Shown here: in pieces, positions 1,966 to 15,369 of the stretch
Numbering within the stretch: position 1 is the first letter of the stretch
Layout: each line of letters begins with the position of its first letter
Assembly: GCA_018901375.1 (NCBI GenBank)
Contig: JAHIEP010000046.1
Location: forward strand, 1-19,914
Direction of reading: 5' to 3'
Length of the DNA: 19,914 nucleotides
DNA from: Nanobdellota archaeon
GTDB taxonomy: Archaea; Nanobdellota; Nanobdellia; Pacearchaeales; GW2011-AR1
Made by a program: the position numbers and the translations under genes
The notes under the pieces: generated by a model
Database searches by the model: none
Told to the model about the DNA's origin: nothing
What the model saw: the letters and a program-made list of their open reading frames with translations, nothing else

Positions 1966-3609
1966 TTATTCCATTATTTTCCCGTTGCTTGCGAAGACGT
2001 CAAATTTTAATCCTTCTACTTGTTTGAAATCTATGAATCCGTTGCTGGCTTTAACTAGTGCTAGTCCTGCGGCGACGTCCCAGAGTAAGATATTTTTTTC
2101 TGAGTAGGCGTCGACTTTTCCTGCTGCGACGTATCCGAGAGATAATGCGGCGGAACCTATAAATCTTAGTTTCTTATATTTGATGAATGAATTTAAGATA
2201 ATCTCTAAATTTTCTTTTGAGTGTTCTGTTTCTTTTGCAATTCCACTACAAAGAATTGCTTTATCTTTTGAGGGCGTGTCGCTGACATTGATTTTTTTGC
2301 CGTTGATGAATGCTCCATTGTTTACATCTCCATAATACATTTCTTCTCTATTGAAATCGTAAATTATTCCGAGTAATGGATTTAGTCCGTCGAAGAGAGC
2401 AATGGAAACGACGCAGTTTGGAATTTTTCTTAAAAAATTTAGACTTCCGTCTATCGGGTCTACGATCCATGTTAATCCTTTTAGTATTAATTCTCCGTGG
2501 TGGGACTCCTCTGAGATTATTGGAATATTTGTTTTTGAAAGTTCACTTAAAATAATTTTCTCGGCTTCTTTGTCGGAATCTATTTTTATGTCTCTCGCTG
2601 ATTCCGTTATGACATTGACTTTCTGTATTTTTTTTAAATAGTCTCCTGTTTTTTTTGCGGTGTAAATTGCAATTTCTAGTTCTTTTGATAAATTTTTTTT
2701 TGCGACTTCTTTTAACATTTCAATTGCACAGTGCCCCATTGAAAGAATGGATTCGTTTGAGGCTCCGCCTATATGGGGGGTGCAGTAAAGATTTTTTTGT
2801 TTAATCAATTCTTCGTTGATGAATGGTTCGTTTGAGTATACGTCAAGTGCCGCTCCTTTAATTTTACCGTCTCTTAGAGCTGATATTAAATCTTCTTCGT
2901 TTATTACTTTTCCTCTTGAGGTGTTGATTATAAAAGACGATGGTTTCATTTTTTCGAGAGTTTCTTTGTTGATGAGATTTTCTGTTGAAGAATCGAGGGG
3001 GACGTGGACGGTGACGATGTCTGATGTTTTGAATATTTCTTCTTTCGAGGATTGAATTAGATTGTTTTGTTTGTAGTATTCTTCTTGCTCGATTATATCA
3101 TTTACTAGTATTTTGCAATTGAAATTTTTTAGCAATTCCACTACTTCTTTTCCGATGTTTCCGACGCCTATTATGCCGATAGTTTTTGAGCTTAAGTTAA
3201 ATCCTCCGTTTTTATTCCATTCTCTATTTTTTAAGTCAAGGGATGATTGGTATATATTTCTCATTAATCCGAGCATATATCCAATGGTGAGTTCTGCGAC
3301 GCTTCTTTTGTTTGTTCCTTTAGTGTGGAGGACTTTTACGTTATATTTTTTGCAAGATTCAAAATCGATATTTTCTACGCCTACTCCATATTTTGATATA
3401 TATCTGAGTTTTGGGGAATTTTTTAAAACGTCGTCGTTGATATTCTCTCCTCCAAGAATTATTGCGTCTGAATCTTTTATGAATTCTATTAGTTCTTTGT
3501 TGGTTTTAATTACTTTATGATTTAATTTTACTTCTTCAAAACTATTATTTGCCGTCGATACTAATTCGTCATTTTTGCTAAAAGCATTAGAAGTAATTGC
3601 TACTTTCAT
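1966..3609 (-). CDS. Fusion: D-2-hydroxyacid dehydrogenase + inositol-monophosphatase-family phosphatase
   Basis: This 547-residue protein has two enzyme domains. Residues 1-about 310 are a SerA-type D-2-hydroxyacid dehydrogenase: GVGNIG NAD-binding loop (148-153), SRGK with Arg232, DVYSNEP with Glu261, and TPHIGGAS with His279 form the usual R-E-H set. Residues about 345-547 are an inositol-monophosphatase-family domain: EE (367-368), WIVDPIDGSLNF (381-392) and WDVAAG (510-515) supply the usual metal ligands. All catalytic positions look intact in both halves, so both are probably active. The start overlaps the end of the upstream fusion gene by 23 bp, so the two are one operon. Oxidation of a hydroxyacid or sugar acid plus dephosphorylation, next to a CMP-type activating enzyme, suggests a custom sugar-acid pathway; the substrate is unknown. 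I see no Shine-Dalgarno sequence at the overlapping start. Confidence 0.8.
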   Translation of the reverse strand: MKVAITSNAFSKNDELVSTANNSFEEVKLNHKVIKTNKELIEFIKDSDAIILGGENINDDVLKNSPKLRYISKYGVGVENIDFESCKKYNVKVLHTKGTNKRSVAELTIGYMLGLMRNIYQSSLDLKNREWNKNGGFNLSSKTIGIIGVGNIGKEVVELLKNFNCKILVNDIIEQEEYYKQNNLIQSSKEEIFKTSDIVTVHVPLDSSTENLINKETLEKMKPSSFIINTSRGKVINEEDLISALRDGKIKGAALDVYSNEPFINEELIKQKNLYCTPHIGGASNESILSMGHCAIEMLKEVAKKNLSKELEIAIYTAKKTGDYLKKIQKVNVITESARDIKIDSDKEAEKIILSELSKTNIPIISEESHHGELILKGLTWIVDPIDGSLNFLRKIPNCVVSIALFDGLNPLLGIIYDFNREEMYYGDVNNGAFINGKKINVSDTPSKDKAILCSGIAKETEHSKENLEIILNSFIKYKKLRFIGSAALSLGYVAAGKVDAYSEKNILLWDVAAGLALVKASNGFIDFKQVEGLKFDVFASNGKIME

Positions 3610-5425
3610 TGTGGTTACTGTTTTTCAATTTTTTTAATATGTTAAGTATTAGCTCTTGACAATCGATTAGTTTTTGTGTGTGGTCGAACGAGAAGACATC
3701 GTTACCACTGAGCTTTTCTATTGCGGTTTTAATGACGCTCAAATATCTTGAATTTTTTAGATTGCTTAGTTCTAATAATTTTTCTTTGTTTCCGTCCGTG
3801 TCAACAAACCATAAATCGTTATTGTGATAGTCTAATAGAAGGGATGCTTTTTCTCCAGTGATTACAAATTTTCTTTGATTTTCTTTATGAGGAACGTATT
3901 TTCCGACTTTTACATTAACTGGAATATTTTTGTCGGTTAAAAATTTTATTTGAGCAAAGGATTCTGCGATATTTTCTTCGGGAAGTAAATGAGTATTTTT
4001 AGCCAAATTTATATATTCTTTTGCGTAATCAACATTTACTTCTCCGTCTTTAAAAGTGATATCTACTTTTCCAAAAACATTGTCGAGTACAAATATTGGA
4101 ATTAGTGCGTGCATTCCTAGATCTTGAATCATGCCGCCTCCTTTGGTGTTATCAAATAAGTGGGATCCTCTGTGATCTAACTTGCCAATTTCATCTTCGC
4201 TTTCGAGAATTTCAATGTCAATCTTTTTTATTTCTCCAGTTAAGTTTTTAATATCTTTAATATGGAAAAGAGGATTGTTCATAAATTCTGCTTTTCTTAT
4301 AACTTCTTCTGAATTGAGAAAAAAACTATCTTTTTTTATCAATTTTTCAAGGACTAAAAAGGGGATTGCCTTTCTCATTAAATGATATTCCATTAGTGAT
4401 ATTTTATCTGGATATTTTCTGATTAAATCTTTTAGTGATTCTAATTCTTTATGGTTGATGGAATATGGTTTTTCTGAAATAACTTTGAAACCATTTGATA
4501 CGAGGTCTTTTGTGTCTGTTAAATGAAAGTTAGTTGCATGTCCTAGTATTATTATTGGGTCTTCGTTTTTGAAGTCGTGTAAGATATCGCTTAATTTTTC
4601 ATCTTCTTTTCTAATAATATGATTTAAATCTGGAAAGGAATCTTCGCCTTGTAATTTTTTTTCTTCTATGTCTACTGTAGCTAACATAATTATATCTCCA
4701 CTGTCATTTAATATTTTTAATGCGGGAGATAAGAACCTATAATACAAGTCTCCGGTGCCGACGACGATTATTTTTTTATTAGTTTTGAGAATTGATTCGG
4801 CATTATGGAGGTCGAGGGCTGTATCTATGTCGACCCCTTCAATGTCATCAACTTCGACGGTTTTGTAATTTCCGCAAATTCTGTGTCTATATTTTTTATA
4901 GGAGTTTTTTCTAATGAAGTAAAAATCTGCTTCTTCATGTACTGGAATTAATTCTTGAGTTCCGACTAAATTTTCTATATCGTGATTTATTGGTTTGTTT
5001 TTGAACCAAAGTCTATTTTGTATTGGGACAACTCCGAATAAGGAATCTATAGTTTCGTCTTCTTCCATTAATTTAATGGATTTGAGAATTGTTTCTTTTT
5101 TTAAGAAAGGAGTTGTTATTAGAACCCATCCTATTATTTCATAATCGAGTTTGTCTAGAATTCTGCTTAGTAGTTGATGGCCTTGAATGTGGTCGGCATT
5201 ATATTCTTCTGGTCTTATGAGCGTGTTGAATCCCCATTCTCTTGCAATACTTAAAACTTTTTCGTCGGAAGAGTCAATAAATATGTTTGCCTTTCTTTCG
5301 TTCTGAATTGATTTTAATGTATTGAAAATGTAAGTATAGAGTGGCTTTCCGTTGAGAAGTTTAAAGGTCTTATTTGGGAGTCTTCTATTTTTTGTTTTTA
5401 TCGTTGTGACTATACAGGTTTTCAT
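3587..5425 (-). CDS. Fusion: CMP-sugar cytidylyltransferase-like + Gfo/Idh/MocA oxidoreductase
   Basis: This 612-residue protein has two enzymes in tandem. Residues 1-about 212 resemble CMP-N-acetylneuraminate/CMP-Kdo synthetases: the N-terminal strand runs into RRLPNK (14-19) and LNGKPL (24-29), and VDIDTALDLH (198-207) is the usual closing acidic motif. Residues about 217-600 are a Gfo/Idh/MocA NAD(P)-dependent oxidoreductase with VVGTGD (221-226), the catalytic-type EKP (318-320) and GGGMIQDLGMH (429-439), where Asp435 and His439 match family active-site positions. The likely role is oxidation or reduction of a sugar and its activation with CTP. It is the first gene of a two-gene operon. 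The start at 5425 is set by a TATA box 25 bp upstream, with no leader. The glycine-rich GGSKR loop of classical NeuA is replaced by IKTKNRR, so the substrate may not be a nonulosonic acid. Confidence 0.75.
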   Translation of the reverse strand: MKTCIVTTIKTKNRRLPNKTFKLLNGKPLYTYIFNTLKSIQNERKANIFIDSSDEKVLSIAREWGFNTLIRPEEYNADHIQGHQLLSRILDKLDYEIIGWVLITTPFLKKETILKSIKLMEEDETIDSLFGVVPIQNRLWFKNKPINHDIENLVGTQELIPVHEEADFYFIRKNSYKKYRHRICGNYKTVEVDDIEGVDIDTALDLHNAESILKTNKKIIVVGTGDLYYRFLSPALKILNDSGDIIMLATVDIEEKKLQGEDSFPDLNHIIRKEDEKLSDILHDFKNEDPIIILGHATNFHLTDTKDLVSNGFKVISEKPYSINHKELESLKDLIRKYPDKISLMEYHLMRKAIPFLVLEKLIKKDSFFLNSEEVIRKAEFMNNPLFHIKDIKNLTGEIKKIDIEILESEDEIGKLDHRGSHLFDNTKGGGMIQDLGMHALIPIFVLDNVFGKVDITFKDGEVNVDYAKEYINLAKNTHLLPEENIAESFAQIKFLTDKNIPVNVKVGKYVPHKENQRKFVITGEKASLLLDYHNNDLWFVDTDGNKEKLLELSNLKNSRYLSVIKTAIEKLSGNDVFSFDHTQKLIDCQELILNILKKLKNSNHNESSNYF

Positions 5426-5531: not shown

Positions 5532-6128
5532 ATGAAAAAAGATGCAATTAAGGATGTAAGGGGATATGTTCCTAAATTTATTGAAGCGTTGGAAAATATT
5601 AATTATGAAGGTTTGCAGAAAGCAACGGATTTTTTAAGAGGACGGGATTATGGTAAGATTTATACTATCGGTAATGGTGGGAGTATGGCGACGGCTGAGC
5701 ATATGGCTGCGGATTTGAATAAGTGGTCGAATGCTGAGGACCAGAGAGTTAGGACGGTTTCGCAGTGTTTGAATTCTAATTCTCCTGAGGTGTCGGCTTT
5801 GACGAATGATGTTGGATGGAATAATCTTTATTCGGAGATGTTGAGAAATTATGGGGCTACTGGTCTTGATGTTCTAATTGCTTATAGTGTGCATGGCGGG
5901 AAAGGGCAGGAGAAGGCTGGGATTTGGAGCGAGAATTTGACTTCGGCTATTTCTTATATGAATTCAATAAAGGGAACAACTATTGGAATTACTGGTGGGG
6001 ATGGTGGGGCGTTTAAAGATTTGTGTGATTATTGTGTTATAGTTCCTTCGGATTCGACTCCGATTGTTGAAGGGCTTCATAGTGTTGTGGCTCATATTAT
6101 TGTTGATTCTATTCGGATTGGTTCTTAG
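5532..6128 (+). CDS. gmhA: SIS-domain sedoheptulose-7-phosphate (phosphoheptose) isomerase
   Basis: This 198-residue protein is full length for GmhA, which converts D-sedoheptulose 7-phosphate to D-glycero-D-manno-heptose 7-phosphate, the first step to nucleotide-activated heptose. The SIS phosphate-binding loop GNGGS (47-51) is followed by AEHMAADL (55-62), which carries the Glu/His expected at the GmhA active site. Near the C-terminus, EGLHSVVAH (180-188) gives the histidine expected of the second catalytic group. The insertion containing DQRVRTVSQCLNSNSPEVSALTND resembles the loop that distinguishes GmhA from other SIS isomerases. The transaldolase gene downstream could supply sedoheptulose 7-phosphate. 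The heptose kinase and nucleotidyltransferase of the pathway are not recognised in this window. The start is fixed by the TATA spacing. Confidence 0.8.
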   Translation: MKKDAIKDVRGYVPKFIEALENINYEGLQKATDFLRGRDYGKIYTIGNGGSMATAEHMAADLNKWSNAEDQRVRTVSQCLNSNSPEVSALTNDVGWNNLYSEMLRNYGATGLDVLIAYSVHGGKGQEKAGIWSENLTSAISYMNSIKGTTIGITGGDGGAFKDLCDYCVIVPSDSTPIVEGLHSVVAHIIVDSIRIGS

Positions 6129-6177: not shown

Positions 6178-7032
6178 ATGAAGATGGAATTTTTTGCGGA
6201 TACGGCGAACCTTGATGAAATAAAATACTGTTTTGAGAATGGGGTTAACGACGGGATTACTACTAATCCTAAAATTATGGAGAGCACGGGGGATTTGTCT
6301 AAAGGAGTAGATTGGGCTTATAGAAAATTGATTGAAAAATATCCTAATGTTCCGATTTCTCTTGAGACTGATTTGAGAGGTATGGATGTTTATAGACTTG
6401 ATGAGAATCCCGAACAGGTAAAGGATATTTTGTTGGAACAGGCATATAAGCTTTCGGGACTTGCAAATAATGTTGTGATAAAAATTCCTATATCGGAAGG
6501 TGGGCTTTTGGCGACTAGGTGGCTTAATAAAGAGGGAATTAAGACTAATGTTACAGCGTGTATGACTCCGTATCAGGCACTTCGTGCTAGTGATGCTGGA
6601 GCTACTTATGTTAGTTTGTTTGCGAATAGGATGGTTGATGGACATATTTTGGAAATGTCTGGGAATCTTGAGAAATTTTTGGATGGGTTTGATTGGAAGA
6701 ATGTTGTTAAAAATAATGCTGTGGAATATTCAGAAAAAGCTTGGGGCAAAACTTTGGGGCAAATTGAATATGTAGCTAGGAAATTGGACGGAACTGAATC
6801 TAAGTTGATTGTTGGGAGCATTAGAAGTCCTGCAGATATTTATAAGATTGCAGAGAGAGGGCCTCAAGTGATTACGATTCCTTATGGGATTGTTTGTAAA
6901 TTGAAAGATATTGAGGGAATAAAGAATATTGATATTAAGGCTGAAAGTTTTATTGGAAGCTCTATTAATCATCCAATGACTTTGCTTACTTTAGATGAGT
7001 TCGAGAAGTCGGCCGATAAATACAGAGGTTAA
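6178..7032 (+). CDS. tal: Transaldolase (TalC/FSA-like, class I)
   Basis: This 284-residue transaldolase-family aldolase moves a dihydroxyacetone unit between sugar phosphates through a Schiff-base lysine. FFADTANLDEI (5-15), GITTNP (26-31) and VVIKIP (99-104) with the likely Schiff-base Lys102 are the diagnostic motifs, followed by NVTACMTPYQAL (124-135). It is longer than the 215-220-residue TalC type, with extra sequence after the barrel. I chose the ATG at 6178 because the TATA box is 25 bp upstream; ATGs at 6166 and 6184 are alternatives, and the open frame reaching back to 6064 lies inside the isomerase gene. Lying after the isomerase, it could provide sedoheptulose 7-phosphate for heptose synthesis, replacing an oxidative pentose-phosphate route. 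Its end overlaps the convergent glycosyltransferase gene by 4 bp. Confidence 0.8.
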   Translation: MKMEFFADTANLDEIKYCFENGVNDGITTNPKIMESTGDLSKGVDWAYRKLIEKYPNVPISLETDLRGMDVYRLDENPEQVKDILLEQAYKLSGLANNVVIKIPISEGGLLATRWLNKEGIKTNVTACMTPYQALRASDAGATYVSLFANRMVDGHILEMSGNLEKFLDGFDWKNVVKNNAVEYSEKAWGKTLGQIEYVARKLDGTESKLIVGSIRSPADIYKIAERGPQVITIPYGIVCKLKDIEGIKNIDIKAESFIGSSINHPMTLLTLDEFEKSADKYRG

Positions 7033-7763
7033 GTTTCTGGTTTATTTATTTTTATTTGTCCTGGAAGGTAGATTAAACTAATGAAACTTTTGTCAACTTT
7101 TTTGAATGTATGTTTGAAATCAGTTACTAATCTATATAGCCATTCTATTCCTAATTTTCTGACTAGCGACGGTGCCTCTTTCTTTTTTTCTAATAGAAAA
7201 TCTAGTCCTGCACCTATGTTTACAAAATATTGAGCTTTTGTTTTTCTGAATAATGTATCTGTTAAAATATTTTGTTTTGGGCAACCGATTCCAACCCAGA
7301 CGTAATCTGCTTTATATTTGTTAATTAGTTTTGACATTTTTTTTATTTCTTCTTGTGAAAATTGTATGAATTTGATGAATGGTGGGTTGTAGCTTTCTGT
7401 ATTATTTAGATGCGGTAGTTTTTTCTTTAGTCTTTGTATATCTTTTTTTTCTAATCCTATGAAAAAATGTCTCTTATTTTTTGAGAGATTTTTTTCCGAT
7501 AGGAAGTCTTTTGTAAATGTTGGGCCTCTTATTCTTGGGATTTTTCTTAAATTCGTTAGTGATAAATATACTGAAATTGTTGAGCCGTCTATGAAATTTA
7601 AGTTGTATTTTTTTAGTAGAGCTTCTTTGAAAAGTGGTTCGTTGTTTAGTTGATAGAGGTCGTGTTGATTAAGGAAGCTTAGAATTTTTCTTTCCTTGTT
7701 TGATTTTAAAAATTTGAAAAGTTCTTTTTCGTTTTTGTCTTGAAATGTTAATTTTTGTTTCAT
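7029..7763 (-). CDS. WecG/TagA/CpsF-family glycosyltransferase (GT26)
   Basis: This 244-residue protein belongs to the family that adds N-acetylmannosamine(uronic acid) or related sugars to a polyprenyl-diphosphate-linked sugar at the cytoplasmic membrane face. Family landmarks appear in order: DG (59-60), RIRG (77-80), VGIGCPKQN (157-165, equal to the usual VGLGxPKQE), NIGAGLDFL (182-190), EAP (196-198) and LGIEWLYRL (204-212). There is no membrane segment; the basic C-terminus is where this family usually contacts the membrane. The N-terminal 50 residues are lysine-rich. It is a single gene divergent from the phosphoramidate operon, with a TATA box 25 bp before its ATG. The sugar and the lipid carrier (probably dolichol-type in an archaeon) are inferred. 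Confidence 0.75.
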   Translation of the reverse strand: MKQKLTFQDKNEKELFKFLKSNKERKILSFLNQHDLYQLNNEPLFKEALLKKYNLNFIDGSTISVYLSLTNLRKIPRIRGPTFTKDFLSEKNLSKNKRHFFIGLEKKDIQRLKKKLPHLNNTESYNPPFIKFIQFSQEEIKKMSKLINKYKADYVWVGIGCPKQNILTDTLFRKTKAQYFVNIGAGLDFLLEKKKEAPSLVRKLGIEWLYRLVTDFKHTFKKVDKSFISLIYLPGQIKINKPET

Positions 7764-7837: not shown

Positions 7838-8335
7838 ATGGGGAAAAATGGACGATTGGTTTGGATAACGGGGCTTTCTGGGTCTGGGAAAACGACTTTG
7901 GCTAGGAGGCTTTGTGACTATATGGGAAACGGTATTGTTTATATGGACGGTGATGACTTAAGAAAAATATTGAGTGAGACCACGACTCATGATATGGATG
8001 GGAGAAAGAGGACGGCTAAGATTTATTCGAGGCTGTGTAGTTACTTAACGAGACAAGGAGCTGATGTCGTTATGAGCACTATTTCTTTGTTCCACGATAT
8101 TCACAAAAATAATAGAAGGAATAATTCTCGCTATTGTGAGGTTTTTTTGGATGTTGATGAAAATATTTTGAAAGATAGAAGGAAGAATCTTTATTTTGGA
8201 GAGATGGATAATGTAATAGGGATTGGTCAAGAACCAGAATTCCCTAGGAGTCCTACATTGACACTTTCGAATAATTATGCTTGCGATATAAATAAAAATG
8301 TTCAAAAAATAATAGAGGTGCTGGATGGACTCTGA
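7838..8335 (+). CDS. CysC-like kinase, probable cytidine diphosphoramidate 3'-kinase (Cj1415-like)
   Basis: This 165-residue P-loop kinase resembles adenylylsulfate kinase: TGLSGSGKTT (11-20) is the Walker A loop and MDGDDLR (36-42) is the acceptor-nucleotide motif seen as LDGDxxR in CysC. There are no other sulfate-assimilation genes here. Instead it heads an operon with a PEP-synthase-like enzyme, a nucleotidyltransferase and a C26 hydrolase. In Campylobacter jejuni the CysC homologue Cj1415 sits with the same partners and phosphorylates the 3'-hydroxyl of cytidine diphosphoramidate, the step equivalent to making PAPS from APS. I assign that role by context; the adenine or cytosine preference cannot be read. 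The TATA box lies 25 bp upstream, so the transcript is probably leaderless. The next gene overlaps by 11 bp. Confidence 0.7.
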   Translation: MGKNGRLVWITGLSGSGKTTLARRLCDYMGNGIVYMDGDDLRKILSETTTHDMDGRKRTAKIYSRLCSYLTRQGADVVMSTISLFHDIHKNNRRNNSRYCEVFLDVDENILKDRRKNLYFGEMDNVIGIGQEPEFPRSPTLTLSNNYACDINKNVQKIIEVLDGL

Positions 8336-9098
8336 TGAATCTGCGAATTATACGGGCAGAGGAGAGGTTTACAGAAAGTTTAGGTCTGGATATTCTGAGA
8401 AAGTTATTGATTTGCTTTTGGCTTATACTGGCCTTTCTCCAATAAAAGATACCGTCGCTGATATTGGTGCGGGAACGGGAATATTTTCTAAACAACTTGC
8501 AAATAGAGGGTATAGTGTTATTGCCGTAGAGCCGAATGATGATATGCGGACTAATGGGAGGGAATATACTGTTGATAAAGATAATATTAAGTGGAGAAAT
8601 GGATGTGCTGAGAATTCTGGTCTTGAAAACAAGTCTGTTGATTGGGTAACTATGGCTTCGTCTTTTCATTGGACAAAGCCCGAGAGGTCTCTTCCTGAGT
8701 TTTATAAAATACTTAAGGATGGTGGATATGTGACTCTTTTGTGGAATCCATTGGTGAAAGATGGCGATGTGATTCAGGAGAAAATTGAATCTATAATTCA
8801 ACGTAATGTTTCTGGTTTTTCGAGGGATTTTAGAAATGGAGAGAATTCAAGGGAAATTCTTCTCTCGAGTGGTTATTTTGATAACGTTGTTGAAATTAGA
8901 CGTGAGCACAAAAGAGATATGCCTGTTAAAGATTATCTTAATGCGTGGAGAGCCGCTAATCATTTGAGAACGACAGCGGAAAAAGTTAGAGAAGGAATAT
9001 TCGAGGATATCCTTAAAGAGATGGAAAAATGCTTGGGAGAACGGGAGATAATTGAGGTGCCTTATTTGACGAAAGCCTGGACGGCTAGAAAAAAATAA
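8325..9098 (+). CDS. Class I SAM-dependent methyltransferase, candidate phosphoramidate O-methyltransferase
   Basis: This 257-residue methyltransferase of the Methyltransf_11 type has motif I DIGAGTG (46-52), the acidic end of strand 2 in VEPNDDM, and SSFHWTKPERSLPEFYKILKDGG, typical of this family around motif IV. It overlaps the kinase gene by 11 bp and has a Shine-Dalgarno-like GAGGTG (8315-8320) at good spacing, so it is translated from the operon mRNA. The C. jejuni phosphoramidate locus also carries methyltransferase genes (Cj1419, Cj1420) beside the glutamine-kinase gene, where the final group is O-methyl phosphoramidate. Methylation of the phosphoramidate or of an intermediate is therefore the likeliest role. 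A glycan methyltransferase is the main alternative, since the motifs do not show the acceptor. Confidence 0.65.
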   Translation: MDSDESANYTGRGEVYRKFRSGYSEKVIDLLLAYTGLSPIKDTVADIGAGTGIFSKQLANRGYSVIAVEPNDDMRTNGREYTVDKDNIKWRNGCAENSGLENKSVDWVTMASSFHWTKPERSLPEFYKILKDGGYVTLLWNPLVKDGDVIQEKIESIIQRNVSGFSRDFRNGENSREILLSSGYFDNVVEIRREHKRDMPVKDYLNAWRAANHLRTTAEKVREGIFEDILKEMEKCLGEREIIEVPYLTKAWTARKK

Positions 9099-9106
9099 TT
9101 TTCAAA

Positions 9107-11476
9107 ATGGATAAATTTACGTTTGGAACTAAAGCAGAGACATTGGAAGGGATTAGCTCTCTCTTAAATGAGTGTGTTGTTCTTGATCAAATTTATTTTT
9201 CAGTTGGAGATTGGATAAATGATAGAGAAGAAATAATATGGAAATTGAAGCATTTTTTTAATTCAGATTTTATCGTCGTTAGAAGTAGTTCTTTGAATGA
9301 GGATACTTTTACTTCTTCGGGAGCTGGTAGTCATCAGACTGTTTTGAATGTTCCAAGAAATGATAGCGAGATGATTATTAAAGCTGTTGAGATGGTGAAA
9401 GAAAGTTACCTTAAGAAATCTCAATTTAATTTATTAAATCAAATTCTTGTTCAGCCAATGTTAGAAAATGTGTTCATGAGTGGTGTTGTGTTTACTAGAT
9501 GTCATACTACTGGGGCACCATATCTTTTGATAAATTATGATGACTCTTCTGGGAAAACTAACAGTGTTACGGGAGGATTGAATAGTCTTAAGACTTTTAC
9601 TTATTTGAAATCTTTAAAGTATTTGCCGAGTAATAAACTTCTTACTAAGGTGATTAGAGTCGCTAGAGAATTGGAATTAGTGACAGAGGTGGATGCTTTA
9701 GACATTGAGTTTGCAATAAATAATTTTGGGATTTTTTTGTTGCAGGTAAGACCATTGGTAATGTTGAAAAAAATAGAACCCGTTATGGACGAGAAAGTAA
9801 TTGCTACTGTAAAAAAAATAAAGGAATTTATTAATTCTAACGATAGGCGGTTTCCGAATTTGCACGGGTATAAAGCTATTTTTGGTTCTATGCCTGATTG
9901 GAATCCGGCAGAAATAATTGGTGAATCTCCGAAGCCGTTGGCGTTTTCATTGTATCGAGAACTTATTACCGATTATATTTGGCCATTAAGTAGAAGCAAG
10001 ATTGGATACAGGGATGTAGGATATCATCCTGGAATTGTTTCGTTAGGAGGTCGACCCTATGTTGATGTAAGATTGAGCTTTAATACTTTTATTCCAGTTA
10101 CATTGTCTGAGAGTGTATCTGAAAAACTTGTAAATTTTTATATAGATAAGCTCATAAATAGACCAGAGTTGCACGATAAAATTGAATTTGAAATAGCTCA
10201 CACTTGTTATAAGTTTGGTTATGAAAAAGAGGAGGTGGAGTTGAGACAAAATAATTTTTCTCCTTTGCAAATAAAGGAAATAAAAAAATCGTTGATAGAC
10301 CTTACTAATAAAATTGTGAATGGTTATTTTACTTCGATAGAAAGAGAGTTAGAGCTTAATGATTTTCTTGGTAATAGGAGACATAAGATAGTAGAATCTG
10401 ATATTGGTTATGATGTTAAAATTTCTCAGTTGATTCATGATTGTAAGCATTATGGAACTTTGCCGTTTTCTATATTGGCGAGATTTTCGTTTGTGGGAAA
10501 TATTTTATTGACGTCTCTCGTGGAAAAAGGGGTAATTACTTCTGATGAGAAAGATAATTTTTTTAAATCTATAAATTCTGTGGCTACGGAGTTTTTGAAA
10601 AAATTGGGTATGTTGAAAAATGGCGAGATAAGTAAGGAGGAGTTTTTAAAAGAGTTTGGACATTTGAGGCCTGGAACTTATGATATTTGCTCTGGGACAT
10701 ACAGAGAAAGATTTGAGGATTATTTTAATATGGAGCATATTGTAGGAAATACCGAAGGGGGATATTGTTTTGAATTTAGTTCTGAAAAGAAAGCTGCGAT
10801 TTCTCAAGCGATTAAAGAGGAGGGGCTTGATTTTACGGTTGAGCAATTTTTGGGTTTTACGAAGAAAGCTTTGGTGGCAAGGGAGAAATCTAAATTTGAG
10901 TTTACAAAAAATTTGAGTTTGATACTTGAGTATTGCCATCGGTTTATGTCTAAACATGGATTCAGTAAAGAAGATGTGGCTTTTTTAGAAATAGGCGATA
11001 TAATTGCCTTTTCTCATAAGTCTAAATCTATAACTGAGATTGAAGACTTGAAAAATAAAATAGCTGGGAATGATGTTGATTATCAAGTAACTAAATCGAT
11101 TAGGTTGCCGCCGCTTATTTATCAAGAAAGAAATGCGGAGTATTTTCATCAGTTTGATAATAAGCCGAATTATATAACTAATAAATTAGTTTGCGGGGAA
11201 ATAGTTTATTTGGACGGGGATATGGCTGTGGAAGATATAGAAGAAAAAATTGTTTTAATAGTGAATGCAGACCCGGGTTATGATTGGATATTCGGGCATA
11301 ACATAAAGGGATTAATAACTAAGTATGGAGGGGTGGCATCACATATGTCGATTCGGTGTGCTGAGTTTGGTTTGCCTGCGGCGATAGGTTGTGGAGAAAC
11401 TATTTTTAATCATATATGTAAATTTAAAGCCATAGAACTTAATTGTATGAATAATAAAATAAAGGGGATAAGTTGA
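9107..11476 (+). CDS. PEP-synthase-like phosphotransferase, probable L-glutamine kinase (Cj1418-like)
   Basis: This 789-residue protein has the PEP-synthase/PPDK layout without the PEP/pyruvate TIM barrel at the C-terminus. Residues about 1-220 form the ATP-grasp domain (VRSSSLNED 58-66; EVDALDIEF 194-202; LLQVRP 211-216). A central region of about 450 residues has no motif I recognise. The C-terminal swivelling phosphohistidine domain contains GGVASHMSIRCAEFGLPAAIG with the phospho-acceptor-type His746. This matches the length and order of C. jejuni Cj1418, an ATP-dependent kinase that phosphorylates the amide nitrogen of L-glutamine, the P-N bond-forming step. Following a nucleotidyltransferase-C26 hydrolase pair supports glutamine as substrate; rifampin phosphotransferase-like activity is the other possibility. 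The ATG is 8 bp after the methyltransferase stop, with no Shine-Dalgarno sequence. Its stop shares one base with the next start. Confidence 0.7.
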   Translation: MDKFTFGTKAETLEGISSLLNECVVLDQIYFSVGDWINDREEIIWKLKHFFNSDFIVVRSSSLNEDTFTSSGAGSHQTVLNVPRNDSEMIIKAVEMVKESYLKKSQFNLLNQILVQPMLENVFMSGVVFTRCHTTGAPYLLINYDDSSGKTNSVTGGLNSLKTFTYLKSLKYLPSNKLLTKVIRVARELELVTEVDALDIEFAINNFGIFLLQVRPLVMLKKIEPVMDEKVIATVKKIKEFINSNDRRFPNLHGYKAIFGSMPDWNPAEIIGESPKPLAFSLYRELITDYIWPLSRSKIGYRDVGYHPGIVSLGGRPYVDVRLSFNTFIPVTLSESVSEKLVNFYIDKLINRPELHDKIEFEIAHTCYKFGYEKEEVELRQNNFSPLQIKEIKKSLIDLTNKIVNGYFTSIERELELNDFLGNRRHKIVESDIGYDVKISQLIHDCKHYGTLPFSILARFSFVGNILLTSLVEKGVITSDEKDNFFKSINSVATEFLKKLGMLKNGEISKEEFLKEFGHLRPGTYDICSGTYRERFEDYFNMEHIVGNTEGGYCFEFSSEKKAAISQAIKEEGLDFTVEQFLGFTKKALVAREKSKFEFTKNLSLILEYCHRFMSKHGFSKEDVAFLEIGDIIAFSHKSKSITEIEDLKNKIAGNDVDYQVTKSIRLPPLIYQERNAEYFHQFDNKPNYITNKLVCGEIVYLDGDMAVEDIEEKIVLIVNADPGYDWIFGHNIKGLITKYGGVASHMSIRCAEFGLPAAIGCGETIFNHICKFKAIELNCMNNKIKGIS

Positions 11477-12264
11477 TGAAAGCTATAGTTTGTGCTGCTG
11501 GAATGGGAACACGTCTTGGGAGATATTCCGAGGACAAACCTAAATGTATGCTTGAGATTGGAGGAGAGTCTTTGCTGGAGAGGCAGGTTAGAACTTTGAA
11601 GAAATCTGGGATTGATGATATTGGTGTTGTGAGAGGATATATGCCTGAGAAAATTAATGTTTCTAGCGTGAAGTATTATGATAATCCGAATTTTGCGAGA
11701 ACGAATATGGTGGTATCTTTGATGACTGCCGAAAGAGAATTTTCTAAAGGTGAGAATCTCGTCTGCTATGGCGATATAATTTATGAGAATAGATTAATAG
11801 ATAAATTAAAGCAAAGTGGTGCTGATGTATCTGTTCTTGTGGACGATGACTGGCTTCCTTATTGGAAGGCGAGATTGGACAACTGGGAATCGGATATCGA
11901 AAGTTTAGTGTATGATTCTAATAGTAATATAATTGATATAGGAAATCCAAAATGTGATTTAAGTGATGCTCAATCGAGGTATATAGGTTTGATAAAATTT
12001 AGCGAGAAGGGTGCGAGAGAATTTGTGAGAATATTTTATGAGAATAAAGAGAAGTGTTGGGATTCTGATGAGCCGTGGTTGAATTCTAAATCTTTTAAGC
12101 AGGCGTATATTACGTGCATGCTTCAGGAGATGATTAATCAGAATGTCGATGTTGTGGCTGTGCATACAGAGAGGGGTTGGCTTGAATTTGATACTGAGGA
12201 GGATGTGAATAGGGTCGGAGAATGGATTAGGGAAGGGAAAATTAAACAATTTATAAATTTGTGA
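11476..12264 (+). CDS. Nucleotidyltransferase, probable CTP:phosphoglutamine cytidylyltransferase (Cj1416-like)
   Basis: This 262-residue sugar-nucleotidyltransferase-fold enzyme begins with AIVCAAGMGTRLG (3-15), followed by KPKCML (21-26), the usual NTP-binding loop and lysine. CYGDIIY and the late segment WLEFDTEEDV supply likely metal-binding acidic residues, the last as in LicC-type cytidylyltransferases. In C. jejuni Cj1416 uses CTP and N-phosphoryl-L-glutamine to make gamma-glutamyl-CDP-amidate; position between the kinase and hydrolase homologues supports that role here. I chose ATG 11476, which overlaps the previous stop as TGATG and follows a weak purine-rich AAGGGGAT. A TTG one codon earlier is less likely. 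CDP-choline- or sugar-type cytidylyl transfer cannot be excluded from motifs alone. Confidence 0.7.
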   Translation: MKAIVCAAGMGTRLGRYSEDKPKCMLEIGGESLLERQVRTLKKSGIDDIGVVRGYMPEKINVSSVKYYDNPNFARTNMVVSLMTAEREFSKGENLVCYGDIIYENRLIDKLKQSGADVSVLVDDDWLPYWKARLDNWESDIESLVYDSNSNIIDIGNPKCDLSDAQSRYIGLIKFSEKGAREFVRIFYENKEKCWDSDEPWLNSKSFKQAYITCMLQEMINQNVDVVAVHTERGWLEFDTEEDVNRVGEWIREGKIKQFINL

Positions 12265-12929
12265 TGTTGACGTTAATAACTCAAAGAGATATATGTGATA
12301 AAAAGCTTGGAGGAACTGATATGCTTGAACATAGCTATGTTGAGTATTATGAAAAAATGGGATTGGATTTAATACCTGTTCCGAATGGTGTTGGAAATAT
12401 TGGAAGGTATTTTGACTTGAATCCTTCTTTGGTTATTCTTTCTGGGGGGAATGATATTTCTCCAAGTTTATATGGAGGAAAGTATTTGTCTAATTCATTG
12501 AGTTCTTGGGAAAGAGATATGCTTGAAAGAAGGCTTGTTGATTATGCCGTTGAAAGACAAGTGCCGATTTTGGGAGAATGTAGGGGGATGCAGTTTCTTA
12601 ATGTTTATTTTGGGGGTAAGGTTTTGCAGAATGTTGGGAGAGAGGGACATGTTGCTAAGACTCATGAAATTGAGATAGTTGTTGGTAGAATATTTGGTAA
12701 AAATAATCCTGTTGTTAATTCTTATCATAATCATTGTATTTCTGAGAAAGAGTTATCTTCGGAATTAAAAGTTTTTGCTAAATCTTCTGAAGGATTTGTC
12801 GAGGGGGTTTATCATTCGAGTTTGCCTATTATGGGAATGATGTGGCATCCTGAAAGAAAGGGTTGCGCTGAAGGATTAAATGAAAAATTAATAGCGAATT
12901 TTTTAGATTTTCGTGAATTTTATTTTTAG
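12264..12929 (+). CDS. Class I glutamine-amidotransferase-like hydrolase (peptidase C26), probable gamma-glutamyl-CDP-amidate hydrolase (Cj1417-like)
   Basis: This 221-residue protein is a stand-alone class I GATase-fold hydrolase related to PuuD. LSGGNDISP (59-67) is the PuuD-type signature, GECRGMQ (104-110) carries the nucleophile Cys106, and MMWHPE (192-197) supplies His195 and Glu197 of the triad, so it appears active. With no synthetase partner, it should hydrolyse a gamma-glutamyl bond itself. In C. jejuni Cj1417 releases glutamate from gamma-glutamyl-CDP-amidate to leave cytidine diphosphoramidate, which is then 3'-phosphorylated by Cj1415. The ATG at 12264 overlaps the cytidylyltransferase stop by one base; a GTG one codon earlier is possible. 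The last 27 bp overlap the convergent sulfotransferase-like gene. Confidence 0.7.
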   Translation: MLTLITQRDICDKKLGGTDMLEHSYVEYYEKMGLDLIPVPNGVGNIGRYFDLNPSLVILSGGNDISPSLYGGKYLSNSLSSWERDMLERRLVDYAVERQVPILGECRGMQFLNVYFGGKVLQNVGREGHVAKTHEIEIVVGRIFGKNNPVVNSYHNHCISEKELSSELKVFAKSSEGFVEGVYHSSLPIMGMMWHPERKGCAEGLNEKLIANFLDFREFYF

Positions 12930-14015
12930 TCCTGTTTTTATGTTGTAATTTATTTTTGTAAATAGCTCTTGTGAAATAAATGTTATTTTGACCAAGGGCA
13001 GACCTATTAATGGAATCATATAAACGAATCTTAGAAATTTTAGGAATATTTTTTTGGCGCCTTTGTGGACGGTGTTTATGTGATTCAGCGAGAGGTTTCG
13101 TCTTATAGAAAAATATTCTATCCACAATGGTTCGTATCTTGGGATTCTTTTGTAATTAAATATTTTGATTAAATCCGAAAAGCAAAATTGGACTAAATTT
13201 ATTTCTGCGGTTGATAGCTCGTCTTTCCATTTTTCGTTTGCGAATTTTGAGTCTGGGATGTTGGATATTGCTCCGCTGGTTGATTCGAGTTTTTCGTTTT
13301 TGAATCCGTAATAGTCTTTGTCTAGAAATGTAGCTGAGTTTAGAGAAGGGTTGTCTTTGATTTTTAACCAGTTAATTAATTCGAATTTTATTTTTTTATA
13401 ATTGGTATGTAATGTTTCGTGTTTTATTGCCATGACGTCTTGTTTCTTTTTTTTCATTTGTTTATATAGATAGGTCGTGTTTCTTAGCATTGTTATGGCG
13501 AGTATAGTGTTCCTCATTTTTTTTCCAGAGTAGAAGCTTGCCCTCGGGTCTCTTATGAGAAATAGCATTTTTTGTTTTGGGAAGTTGTGTGCTAGGTCTA
13601 TGAACATTTCCGGCACGTGAGAATGTCCGAGGATATATCTTACTTTACTTACGTCTTTTTGAAAATGTTTTGTGTAGGCATAATGTGTTCCGATGAAAAT
13701 TGTTTTAGTGCTTGTTCCGAATTTGTCTGTATATTCTTTGAGATATTTTGCGAATATTTTTTTGGGGAATTTTTTTTGGAAATCGTTGTCTCCTATGTAC
13801 ATGGAAACTCGCTCAGCTATTCTTTCGTGAATTAGGTTGACTATATCATTAAAATTTTTATTTTCAATTTCGTTATTTTTTAAATAGTAAAATATGATTG
13901 TGGTAATTTCTGGATGACCGTCTAAAAGTCCTTGCACGAATATACTGCTTCCCCTACCTAAAGGAATCATATTGATAATTTTTATTTTATCTGGATGAAA
14001 ATTATGAAATTCCAT
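12903..14015 (-). CDS. Sulfotransferase-fold protein, candidate phosphoramidate transferase
   Basis: This 370-residue protein has both nucleotide-binding marks of PAPS-dependent sulfotransferases. GRGSSIFVQGLLDGHPEI (20-37) is the 5'-phosphosulfate loop (usually GRSGTTxLxxLLDxHP), and LFLIRDPRASFYS (151-163) is the 3'-phosphate motif with Arg155. A canonical Lys/Arg-Ser-Gly is replaced by Arg-Gly-Ser-Ser. It lies 1 nt after the flippase stop, so it is co-transcribed with glycan export, and its end overlaps the phosphoramidate operon by 27 bp. Plain sulfation of a glycan is the default family function. No PAPS-making genes are here apart from the CysC-like kinase, whose expected product, 3'-phospho-CDP-amidate, resembles PAPS; phosphoramidate transfer is therefore a concrete alternative. 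The C-terminal ~70 residues are hydrophobic/basic and may contact membrane. Confidence 0.6.
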   Translation of the reverse strand: MEFHNFHPDKIKIINMIPLGRGSSIFVQGLLDGHPEITTIIFYYLKNNEIENKNFNDIVNLIHERIAERVSMYIGDNDFQKKFPKKIFAKYLKEYTDKFGTSTKTIFIGTHYAYTKHFQKDVSKVRYILGHSHVPEMFIDLAHNFPKQKMLFLIRDPRASFYSGKKMRNTILAITMLRNTTYLYKQMKKKKQDVMAIKHETLHTNYKKIKFELINWLKIKDNPSLNSATFLDKDYYGFKNEKLESTSGAISNIPDSKFANEKWKDELSTAEINLVQFCFSDLIKIFNYKRIPRYEPLWIEYFSIRRNLSLNHINTVHKGAKKIFLKFLRFVYMIPLIGLPLVKITFISQELFTKINYNIKTGLKIKFTKI

Positions 14016-14016
14016 T

Positions 14017-15369
14017 TTATCTTTTCTTTTTGAAGATTATTAATCCTGCGAGATTTAGATATCGACTTATTATTGTTGCGATACATGCGCCGTAAGTTGC
14101 TTGCATCATTCCGTATGGAAGTAGTGCTGTTATTAATATGTAATTTAGTGCTATGTTGAGGAGCGTCGAGGCAAAAAGAATTATTGCGAATTTTTTGGTA
14201 TATTTTTGAGAAATATAGTAGGTTGTGTAGAGTGCGATTAGTGGAGCGCTGATTAGTATTAGAGAGAAAATTTCGAGGATGTGAACGGCTGGGGAAAAAG
14301 ACGGGCCTGGAATTTTTATTATTATTTTTGCGAAGACGAATGTGAATATTGCTGCTGATATACTTATTAGGAGAGTTAGTCTTATTGTTTTTTTGAATCC
14401 TTGTTCGAGCCTGTCGCCTTTTAGTTTTGAAAAAATCGGGAGAAGGGAGATTGATGAGAATGATAGAATTGCTGCTGCTGAGCCGATTAATCCGAATGCT
14501 GCAAAGTAATATCCGATAAAAGTTGAGTCTTCGATGAATCCCCCAAGCATAAACATATCGATGTTGCCGAAAAATGTTCCAGAAAGAGCAATTGCCGAGA
14601 GTGGTATAACGAATTTCCAAATTGTTGATTTTTCTTTTTTTGTTAGTTGTTTTGGTTTTATATCTTTAAAGTAATTTAATTTGAAAAATAAGAATGTGCT
14701 GGCAATGAAGTAGGTTAGTGAAAGGGTTAAAATTATTAGTGATATTGTTGCCGATACTGAGAGTTTTTTGGCGAAGAGAATAATTGATATTGGGACTATG
14801 ATTAACCTTAGGGATTGGATTATTATTTCTTTAATTAGTGGTATTTTGAAATTGTTTTTTGCGTGAAAAATTTGGATGAAAAAACCTATTGACAGGTTTG
14901 CTAAGAGATAAAGGATTCCTATTAAGAGAGCGAGGAAGATTGGTTTTTTGTAGTAGTAAACTGCAAGTGGGTAGCTTAAAATTGCCAATGATATTGCGGT
15001 TATTAGAAATAGAATTATTTTTATTTTTCTGAAATAAAGGTAATATCCTTTTGCAGAAGAAATGTTTTTGCCTGCTAATTTTTTAGACATAAATGTTGTG
15101 ATTGCGGCGCCGACGCCTAGGTCTGAAAAAATGGTAAAAAGAAGAATTGCCGAGAGTGTTAGTCCGTAGAGTCCGTAGAGTTCTGGAAGTAAAATTCTGG
15201 CTAAAATAATTGTAAAGAGAAGTGAGCCAACTTTTGAGACTATCGTCGTCGTAATTTGATAGGTTGAATTTTTTATTGCTTGGCCAGTGTTTCCTTTGAG
15301 GTCTCTTCTTTTTATTCTTCCGAGGATTCCTTTAATTTCTTTTACTTCTTCTTTTATTGCATTGTTCAT
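14017..15369 (-). CDS. Wzx-type oligosaccharide flippase (MOP superfamily)
   Basis: This 450-residue integral membrane protein has about 12 hydrophobic segments after a charged N-terminal region of some 30 residues. The opening pattern, with STYQITTTIVSKVGSLLFTIILARIL followed by LYGLYGL, is typical of the polysaccharide biosynthesis/Wzx family, in which the first helix ends near A-R-x-L and the first loop has a Y/F-G. It would flip lipid-linked oligosaccharide across the cytoplasmic membrane. It is first in an operon with the sulfotransferase-like gene (1-nt gap). A TATA-like TTTTAAATA lies 25-29 nt before the ATG. The glycan assembled by the neighbouring glycosyltransferases is its natural cargo, by inference. 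Confidence 0.8.
   Translation of the reverse strand: MNNAIKEEVKEIKGILGRIKRRDLKGNTGQAIKNSTYQITTTIVSKVGSLLFTIILARILLPELYGLYGLTLSAILLFTIFSDLGVGAAITTFMSKKLAGKNISSAKGYYLYFRKIKIILFLITAISLAILSYPLAVYYYKKPIFLALLIGILYLLANLSIGFFIQIFHAKNNFKIPLIKEIIIQSLRLIIVPISIILFAKKLSVSATISLIILTLSLTYFIASTFLFFKLNYFKDIKPKQLTKKEKSTIWKFVIPLSAIALSGTFFGNIDMFMLGGFIEDSTFIGYYFAAFGLIGSAAAILSFSSISLLPIFSKLKGDRLEQGFKKTIRLTLLISISAAIFTFVFAKIIIKIPGPSFSPAVHILEIFSLILISAPLIALYTTYYISQKYTKKFAIILFASTLLNIALNYILITALLPYGMMQATYGACIATIISRYLNLAGLIIFKKKR

Follow-up and report, generated by a model that had tools for sequence, protein, structure and literature searches.

What does a five-gene operon resembling the phosphoramidate genes of Campylobacter jejuni do in a Nanobdellota archaeon, and which enzyme would attach its product? 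The operon lies on contig JAHIEP010000046.1 (assembly GCA_018901375.1), all 19,914 nucleotides of which make up the window analyzed here, designated contig C74 of draft genome G000 (818,707 bases in 158 contigs, 79.9% complete). A preliminary description of the window had proposed that five overlapping or closely spaced genes between positions 7838 and 12929 form a complete phosphoramidate donor operon. In C. jejuni, Cj1415 to Cj1418 make CDP-phosphoramidate 3'-phosphate, as described in PMC11800397. Homology, catalytic residues, gene neighborhood, co-occurrence, and gene fusions together indicate that the archaeal cluster probably encodes a 3'-phospho-CDP-(methyl)phosphoramidate donor pathway within a surface-glycan locus, where a sixth gene, for a protein with a sulfotransferase fold, would encode the enzyme that attaches the group to the glycan. 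The five open reading frames (ORFs) are spaced by -11, +8, -4, and -4 bases, in agreement with the preliminary description, and the conserved neighborhood extends past them to include the convergent sixth gene:

7838 to 8335, forward strand: kin, a predicted Cj1415-type CDP-amidate 3'-kinase, a CysC-like P-loop kinase (NF004041; homology to Cj1415)
8325 to 9098, forward strand: MT, a Cj1419/Cj1420-type S-adenosylmethionine (SAM) methyltransferase (by homology; fused to kin in relatives)
9107 to 11476, forward strand: GlnK, a predicted L-glutamine kinase of the Cj1418 family with phospho-acceptor His746 (NF004508)
11473 to 12264, forward strand: NT, a predicted Cj1416-type CTP:phosphoglutamine cytidylyltransferase (by homology; TTG start, with ATG as the next codon)
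12261 to 12929, forward strand: HYD, a predicted Cj1417-type gamma-glutamyl-CDP-amidate hydrolase (GTG start, with ATG as the next codon; C107/H196/E198)
12903 to 14015, reverse strand: ST, a sulfotransferase-fold protein and candidate amidate transferase (convergent with HYD, with a 27-base overlap)

All six genes occur together in three further archaeal assemblies. The family labels given previously (adenosine 5'-phosphosulfate [APS] kinase-like, class I SAM methyltransferase, PPDK_N plus PEP-utilizers, MobA-like NTP transferase, and peptidase C26) are correct. The word "complete" holds for the donor steps; the likely transferase lies just beyond the five genes.

Comparison with the proteins of C. 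jejuni record L114 showed GlnK to be 39.6% identical to Cj1418 over 798 amino acids (E value, 1.3e-177), NT to be 29.8% identical to Cj1416 over 255 amino acids (2.2e-37), kin to be 33.5% identical to Cj1415 over 167 amino acids (2.8e-27), and HYD to be 30.4% identical to Cj1417 over 214 amino acids (4.6e-21), while MT is related to both Cj1420 (37.5%; 5.9e-48) and Cj1419 (35.2%; 3.1e-37). Because the matches are one for one (MT alone having two) and their E values range from 4.6e-21 to 1.3e-177, the resemblance is not a matter of chance. Against the NCBIfam models, GlnK scores 874.3 bits on NF004508 (cut-off, 501; Cj1418 itself, 1173), and kin passes NF004041 with 129.8 bits (cut-off, 127; Cj1415 itself, 290.6). 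No Cj1416-specific model came up even for Cj1416, and NT was assigned by homology and by its co-occurrence with GlnK.

The active-site residues are likewise retained. His746 of GlnK, whose position was given correctly at the outset, aligns with His737 of Cj1418. The hydrolase triad had been identified with the right residues but numbered from the ATG as Cys106/His195/Glu197; counted from the GTG at 12261, it is Cys107/His196/Glu198 and aligns with Cys101/His178/Glu180 of Cj1417. Of the columns conserved in 85% or more of the cluster relatives, the window being counted among the rows, all 25 are retained in kin, 26 of 27 in HYD, 33 of 42 in MT, and 35 of 39 in NT. E values and alignments thus agree with the original claim that homologues of all four donor enzymes and a methyltransferase are present, with active-site residues intact and in a gene order that differs from that of C. 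jejuni.

Other family assignments were rejected on model scores: GlnK as a phosphoenolpyruvate (PEP) synthase (TIGR01418, 33.9 bits against a cut-off of 739.75; best model named for PEP synthase, 53.1 against 850) or as a rifampin (rifamycin) phosphotransferase (NF041857, 29.1 against 999), kin as a true APS kinase, CysC (TIGR00455, 70 against 138.7, a cut-off that Cj1415 also misses with 126.9), and HYD as a PuuD-type gamma-glutamyl hydrolase (NF008471, 50.5 against 266). Model scores and the GlnK tree place the phosphotransferase with Cj1418 and not with PEP synthases or rifampin phosphotransferases, and the small kinase exceeds the cut-off of the Cj1415-containing model but not that of the model for the APS kinases of sulfate assimilation. 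Among 371 genomes of the phylum, GlnK exceeds its cut-off in eight, and a ninth, G204, has GlnK in pieces. Relatives of HYD (E ≤ 1e-20) were found in eight genomes, all of them among these nine, the one of the nine that lacks such a relative being G122, which has a GlnK fragment; relatives of NT above 250 bits were found in the same eight, and the next best, at 174 bits, come from genomes without GlnK. Because relatives at these thresholds are confined to GlnK genomes, HYD and NT have no closer relatives in unrelated settings within this sample. Of the results that the preliminary description had named as refuting its reading, none was observed. At L041 (9165 to 12055, reverse strand), in the same genome as L012 (G204), GlnK is split, through either decay or sequencing error, into three overlapping frames, and the adjacent HYD and NT are intact.

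By homology, GlnK would phosphorylate the amide nitrogen of glutamine via phospho-His746, NT would transfer CMP from CTP onto phosphoglutamine, HYD would strip off glutamate to give CDP-phosphoramidate, and kin would add the 3'-phosphate, with MT predicted to O-methylate at some stage of the pathway. We infer that ST would bind the 3'-phosphorylated nucleotide as enzymes dependent on 3'-phosphoadenosine 5'-phosphosulfate (PAPS) bind PAPS and would transfer the (methyl)phosphoramidate onto a hydroxyl group of a sugar. The 3'-phospho-CMP left over may then be removed by an enzyme of the inositol-monophosphatase type (IMPase).

The structural matches of ST include tyrosylprotein sulfotransferase and the curacin sulfotransferase 4gbm, at 14 to 16% identity. 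ST differs from PAPS-dependent sulfotransferases in that distance and in its gene neighbors, which would make a 3'-phosphorylated cytidine donor rather than PAPS. The sulfotransferase fold needs the 3'-phosphate of PAPS; since kin would give the cytidine donor just such a 3'-phosphate, the pairing of the two proteins is chemically sensible. Genomic neighborhoods are consistent with it: a sulfotransferase-like gene lies within 8 kb of GlnK at 20 of the 38 loci that have the 3'-kinase and at 3 of the 46 that do not (Fisher's exact test, P = 3.4e-6); among the 20 is L063, which probably has a true APS kinase. These counts, like those below, are drawn from the best 80 of the confirmed GlnK places, which number more than 549, and cover 84 loci, with L034, L036, L037, L038, and L129 dropped as repeats of other records and the fused kinase of L127 added by hand (19 of 37 against 4 of 48 before that addition and with L129 included); absences are soft, as many loci lie near contig ends, and a fused HYD-NT or kin-MT ORF was counted once. 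The sulfotransferase-like search was seeded solely with the two sulfotransferases of L036, and 7 of the 10 genes sent to Pfam pass its sulfotransferase cut-off (L095, L120, and L084 fail). In seven bacterial loci (L058, L064, L088, L090, L095, L108, and L112), the sulfotransferase-like gene abuts or overlaps the kinase gene, with a gap of at most 12 bases. As the transferase of clusters that lack the kinase, a CDP-alcohol phosphotransferase was considered and rejected (4 of 38 loci with kin and 6 of 46 without it; P = 1.0).

A CysC-like kinase next to a sulfotransferase-like fold might also mean that two unrelated modules stand side by side, the GlnK genes and an ordinary sulfation pathway of APS kinase and PAPS sulfotransferase. 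At L036/L063, GlnK is indeed accompanied by an evident APS kinase-IMPase fusion and by a clear sulfotransferase; ATP sulfurylase is present in the genomes of L042 and L112, CysD exceeds its cut-off in those of L064 and L095, and a weak CysD match occurs in that of L108. On the other hand, kin exceeds the cut-off of the model to which Cj1415 belongs and reaches half that of the APS-kinase model, and a kin-MT fusion would have no place in sulfation. Of the 11 genomes checked, 6 yielded neither type of sulfurylase, namely, those of L127, L043, L058, L088, and L090 and the 79.9%-complete G000, where neither PF01747 nor CysD had a match. Ordinary sulfation thus appears disfavored, and we regard such a juxtaposition as quite improbable.

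The place of MT in the proposed donor pathway is suggested by the company it keeps. It was found near 23 of the 84 loci, 19 of the 38 with kin and 4 of the 46 without it, and kin and MT form a single polypeptide in L127. The same fusion occurs in 11 of the 120 proteins listed, and over the aligned part one of these is identical to the L127 protein. In P0133, phosphatase (IMPase), kinase, and methyltransferase are joined in one chain; HYD and NT are fused in L128. The kin-MT fusions appear to be the strongest pointer so far to the role of the Cj1419/Cj1420 type. Alternatively, the donor pathway might deliver plain phosphoramidate, and MT might methylate the acceptor sugar or some other molecule. 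Many clusters do have GlnK, NT, and HYD without MT, and in PMC11800397 and PMC3546167 no change is assigned to Cj1419 and Cj1420 knockouts. We nevertheless consider this unlikely, since the co-occurrence and fusion of MT with kin tie it to the nucleotide step. Many kinases of methyltransferase clusters carry the motif ISLF or ISMF, and those of L036/L063 and L049 carry ISPY; the pattern missed many rows and was not used as a count.

Several observations weigh against the assignment of a donor pathway with ST as its transferase. On NF045546, its best NCBIfam model, HYD scores 95.3 bits, below the equivalog cut-off of 250 (Cj1417, 330.7), as do its relatives of L042 (91.4) and L034 (97.3). ST itself falls below the Pfam sulfotransferase cut-off (12.3 against 27), although relatives of it exceed theirs (P0124, 23.1 against 22; L043, 24.7 against 22), and profile comparison detected no relationship between it and DUF2972, the family of the C. 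jejuni transferase (hhalign probability, 1.9); a model of a fragment of that transferase, built from four rows, was too poor to use (pLDDT, 38.9). After correction for the tree, the link between kin and sulfotransferase is suggestive, with 6.0 of 11 independent pairs changing in the expected way against 0.5 in the other (median P = 0.06). IMPase genes, which occur inside some clusters, were found at 9 of 39 loci with kin and 1 of 45 without it (P = 0.005), but this is not robust to the tree (pairs, 3.2 against 1.0), which weakens IMPase as a regular cluster member. The ATP sulfurylase of the L042 genome is a further point of this kind, and PMC11800397 reports no function for Cj1419/Cj1420. Finally, at a locus from the same genus as the window (L073/L129), GlnK, HYD, and NT were detected and kin, MT, and ST were not; the full gene set is therefore patchy. 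At that locus, the Cj1416-like NT is fused to a serine hydroxymethyltransferase (L073, 12970 to 14976, equivalent to L129, 6049 to 8055; PF00464, 536.6 bits), and a gene resembling FolD by eye adjoins the fusion.

The genes on either side of the operon bear on where the group would end up:

14017 to 15369, reverse strand: Wzx-type polysaccharide flippase (PF01943, 70 bits), 1 base from ST
7029 to 7763, reverse strand: WecG/TagA/CpsF-type glycosyltransferase (PF03808, 106 bits), divergent from the operon and 74 bases away
1966 to 3609, reverse strand: PGDH-inositol-monophosphatase fusion (PF00459, 149.5 bits; PF02826, 187.4 bits)

A surface-glycan locus is indicated because the Wzx-type flippase, glycosyltransferases, and CMP-sugar synthetase-like, SIS, and transaldolase-like genes surround the operon. 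The CMP-sugar synthetase-like domain belongs to a 612-residue protein (3587 to 5425, reverse strand), the remainder of which, judged by eye, resembles an oxidoreductase; the forward strand encodes a GmhA-like SIS protein (5532 to 6128) and a transaldolase-like protein (6184 to 7032). These three genes suggest the synthesis of an unusual activated sugar, perhaps heptose- or ulosonate-like. The phosphoramidate could instead be placed on a small molecule, such as a natural product or signaling compound, and the GlnK family is indeed found at loci with few or no core partners, for example, L071 of Streptomyces; given the flippase 1 base from ST, the nearby glycosyltransferases, and a glycosyltransferase-sulfotransferase fusion in the relative L090, this seems improbable. 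The 1966 to 3609 fusion scores 85.2 bits on the CysQ model, below the cut-off of 228.8, and fits no single curated family; it is a possible, weak candidate for the 3'-phosphatase that would act on the spent nucleotide. At L084, the label "PGDH" denotes an IMPase match, to judge by its range (298 to 525).

How widely might such a system be used? GlnK relatives with E ≤ 0.001 numbered 3,764 among the 8,000 scored, and at least 549 GlnK places were confirmed in species genomes, among bacteria, Haloferax elongans, a halophilic archaeon, Altiarchaeales, a Euryarchaeota bin, and DPANN archaea. The GlnK tree comprises 101 rows and omits 15 loci and all proteins beyond P0028, as well as P0001 and P0003. 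Within it, the window GlnK falls in an unfused set of 29 sequences (support, 99), well apart from Campylobacter, in which seven members are archaeal by name. Another archaeal set, of 14 rows (support, 100), is made up for the most part of kinases extended at the N terminus by a cytidylyltransferase-like domain, and the two haloarchaeal sequences are placed among bacteria. In quick trees, a single archaeal GlnK clade was rejected (p-AU, 0.0001; with haloarchaea removed, 0.003). Since the archaeal GlnKs do not form one clade, gene flow between the domains is likely, as had been proposed in general terms; a recent gift from Campylobacter is rejected, the window GlnK being so distant from that genus, and for this protein the transfer was likely old or indirect. 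That the contig is bacterial and was misplaced in an archaeal bin is conceivable for an uncultured draft genome of 158 contigs at 79.9% completeness, yet hardly credible, as the closest relatives lie in records named Pacearchaeota, Nanoarchaeota, and Micrarchaeia, the locus from the same genus carries GlnK, HYD, and NT, and the six genes recur in the three other archaeal assemblies.

Clusters of the second archaeal kind, typified by L034, contain HYD and NT and mostly lack the 3'-kinase and methyltransferase; some have 430- to 460-residue and phosphoglycerate-mutase-like neighbors. The GlnK of L034 (8251 to 11154) has an N-terminal PF01467-type domain by a Pfam run on that locus alone, "PF01467-like" at other loci referring to a four-letter motif. 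The L034 cluster also encodes, on the forward strand, a HIT-domain protein (12066 to 12530) and a low-molecular-weight phosphatase-like protein (13912 to 14385). HIT proteins include nucleoside phosphoramidases, and the one of L034 may serve a turnover or protection step. In many bacterial and two haloarchaeal GlnKs (e.g., L044, L045, and L052), an extra N-terminal domain is present, which is a MobA-like NTP transferase in several, and a separate Cj1416-like gene often stands beside GlnKs with such a domain. In H. elongans ATCC BAA-1513 (L052), GlnK (1,053 residues), HYD, and Cj1416-like and Cj1415-like genes lie in a row; neither MT nor a sulfotransferase-like gene was detected there within 8 kb, so that the product expected of this cluster would be plain phosphoramidate.

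Compared with Cj1415 to Cj1420, the window matches all four characterized donor enzymes and the methyltransferase type, with catalytic residues kept. The order is kin-MT-GlnK-NT-HYD in the window and MT-MT-GlnK-HYD-NT-kin in C. jejuni, with a single methyltransferase in place of the two paralogues Cj1419 and Cj1420. Unlike C. jejuni, the host is an archaeon and the locus has a sulfotransferase-fold gene, and PF11186 (DUF2972, Cj1421/Cj1422 type) had no match among the 17 window proteins scanned. Deletion of Cj1421 and Cj1422 causes loss of the phosphoramidate group, according to PMC11800397, and a paper of June 2026 states that how enzymes attach the methylated group is unclear in its details (PMC13276843). 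No literature linking Cj1422 with a sulfotransferase appeared among the matches listed.

The suggestion that this P-N pathway had not been described in archaea does not stand in general, since an O-methyl phosphoramidate cluster was predicted in 2025 for the Cobalt Borg element (PMC12660748). There too the predicted phosphoramidate genes have a link to archaea and lie in a region for glycoconjugates; the case differs in concerning an extrachromosomal element of methane-oxidizing archaea and in being argued from predicted structures. The term "glutamine kinase" does not occur in the main text of that paper. For DPANN archaea the suggestion holds: no literature on the pathway in this group was found, nor any joining glutamine kinase, archaeal, and cytidylyltransferase, in searches whose coverage left most subscription journals outside.

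Judged by its genes, the cluster is well supported as a predicted archaeal version of a pathway already known, and its candidate transferase would be of a new type that can be put to the test. Beyond this locus, we propose tentatively, and at somewhat less than even confidence, that sulfotransferase-fold enzymes may commonly attach phosphoramidate across bacteria and archaea, recognizing 3'-phospho-CDP-(methyl)amidate in the manner of PAPS. The 3'-phosphate handle would come from the CysC-like kinase, the kinase-fused methyltransferase would finish the group, and a CysQ-like phosphatase would clear 3'-phospho-CMP, in parallel to sulfation but on a cytidine P-N donor, with the Campylobacter DUF2972 protein perhaps being a local alternative or an over-diverged form. 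The single, unparalogued MT, the kin-MT fusions, and the well-modeled candidate transferase mean that a small number of proteins would suffice to test methylation and transfer directly. Biochemical knowledge of P-N groups on glycans comes from Campylobacter; if the proposed pathway is correct, P-N chemistry would extend to the surface of a DPANN archaeon and to H. elongans, a named species with homologues of GlnK, NT, HYD, and kin.

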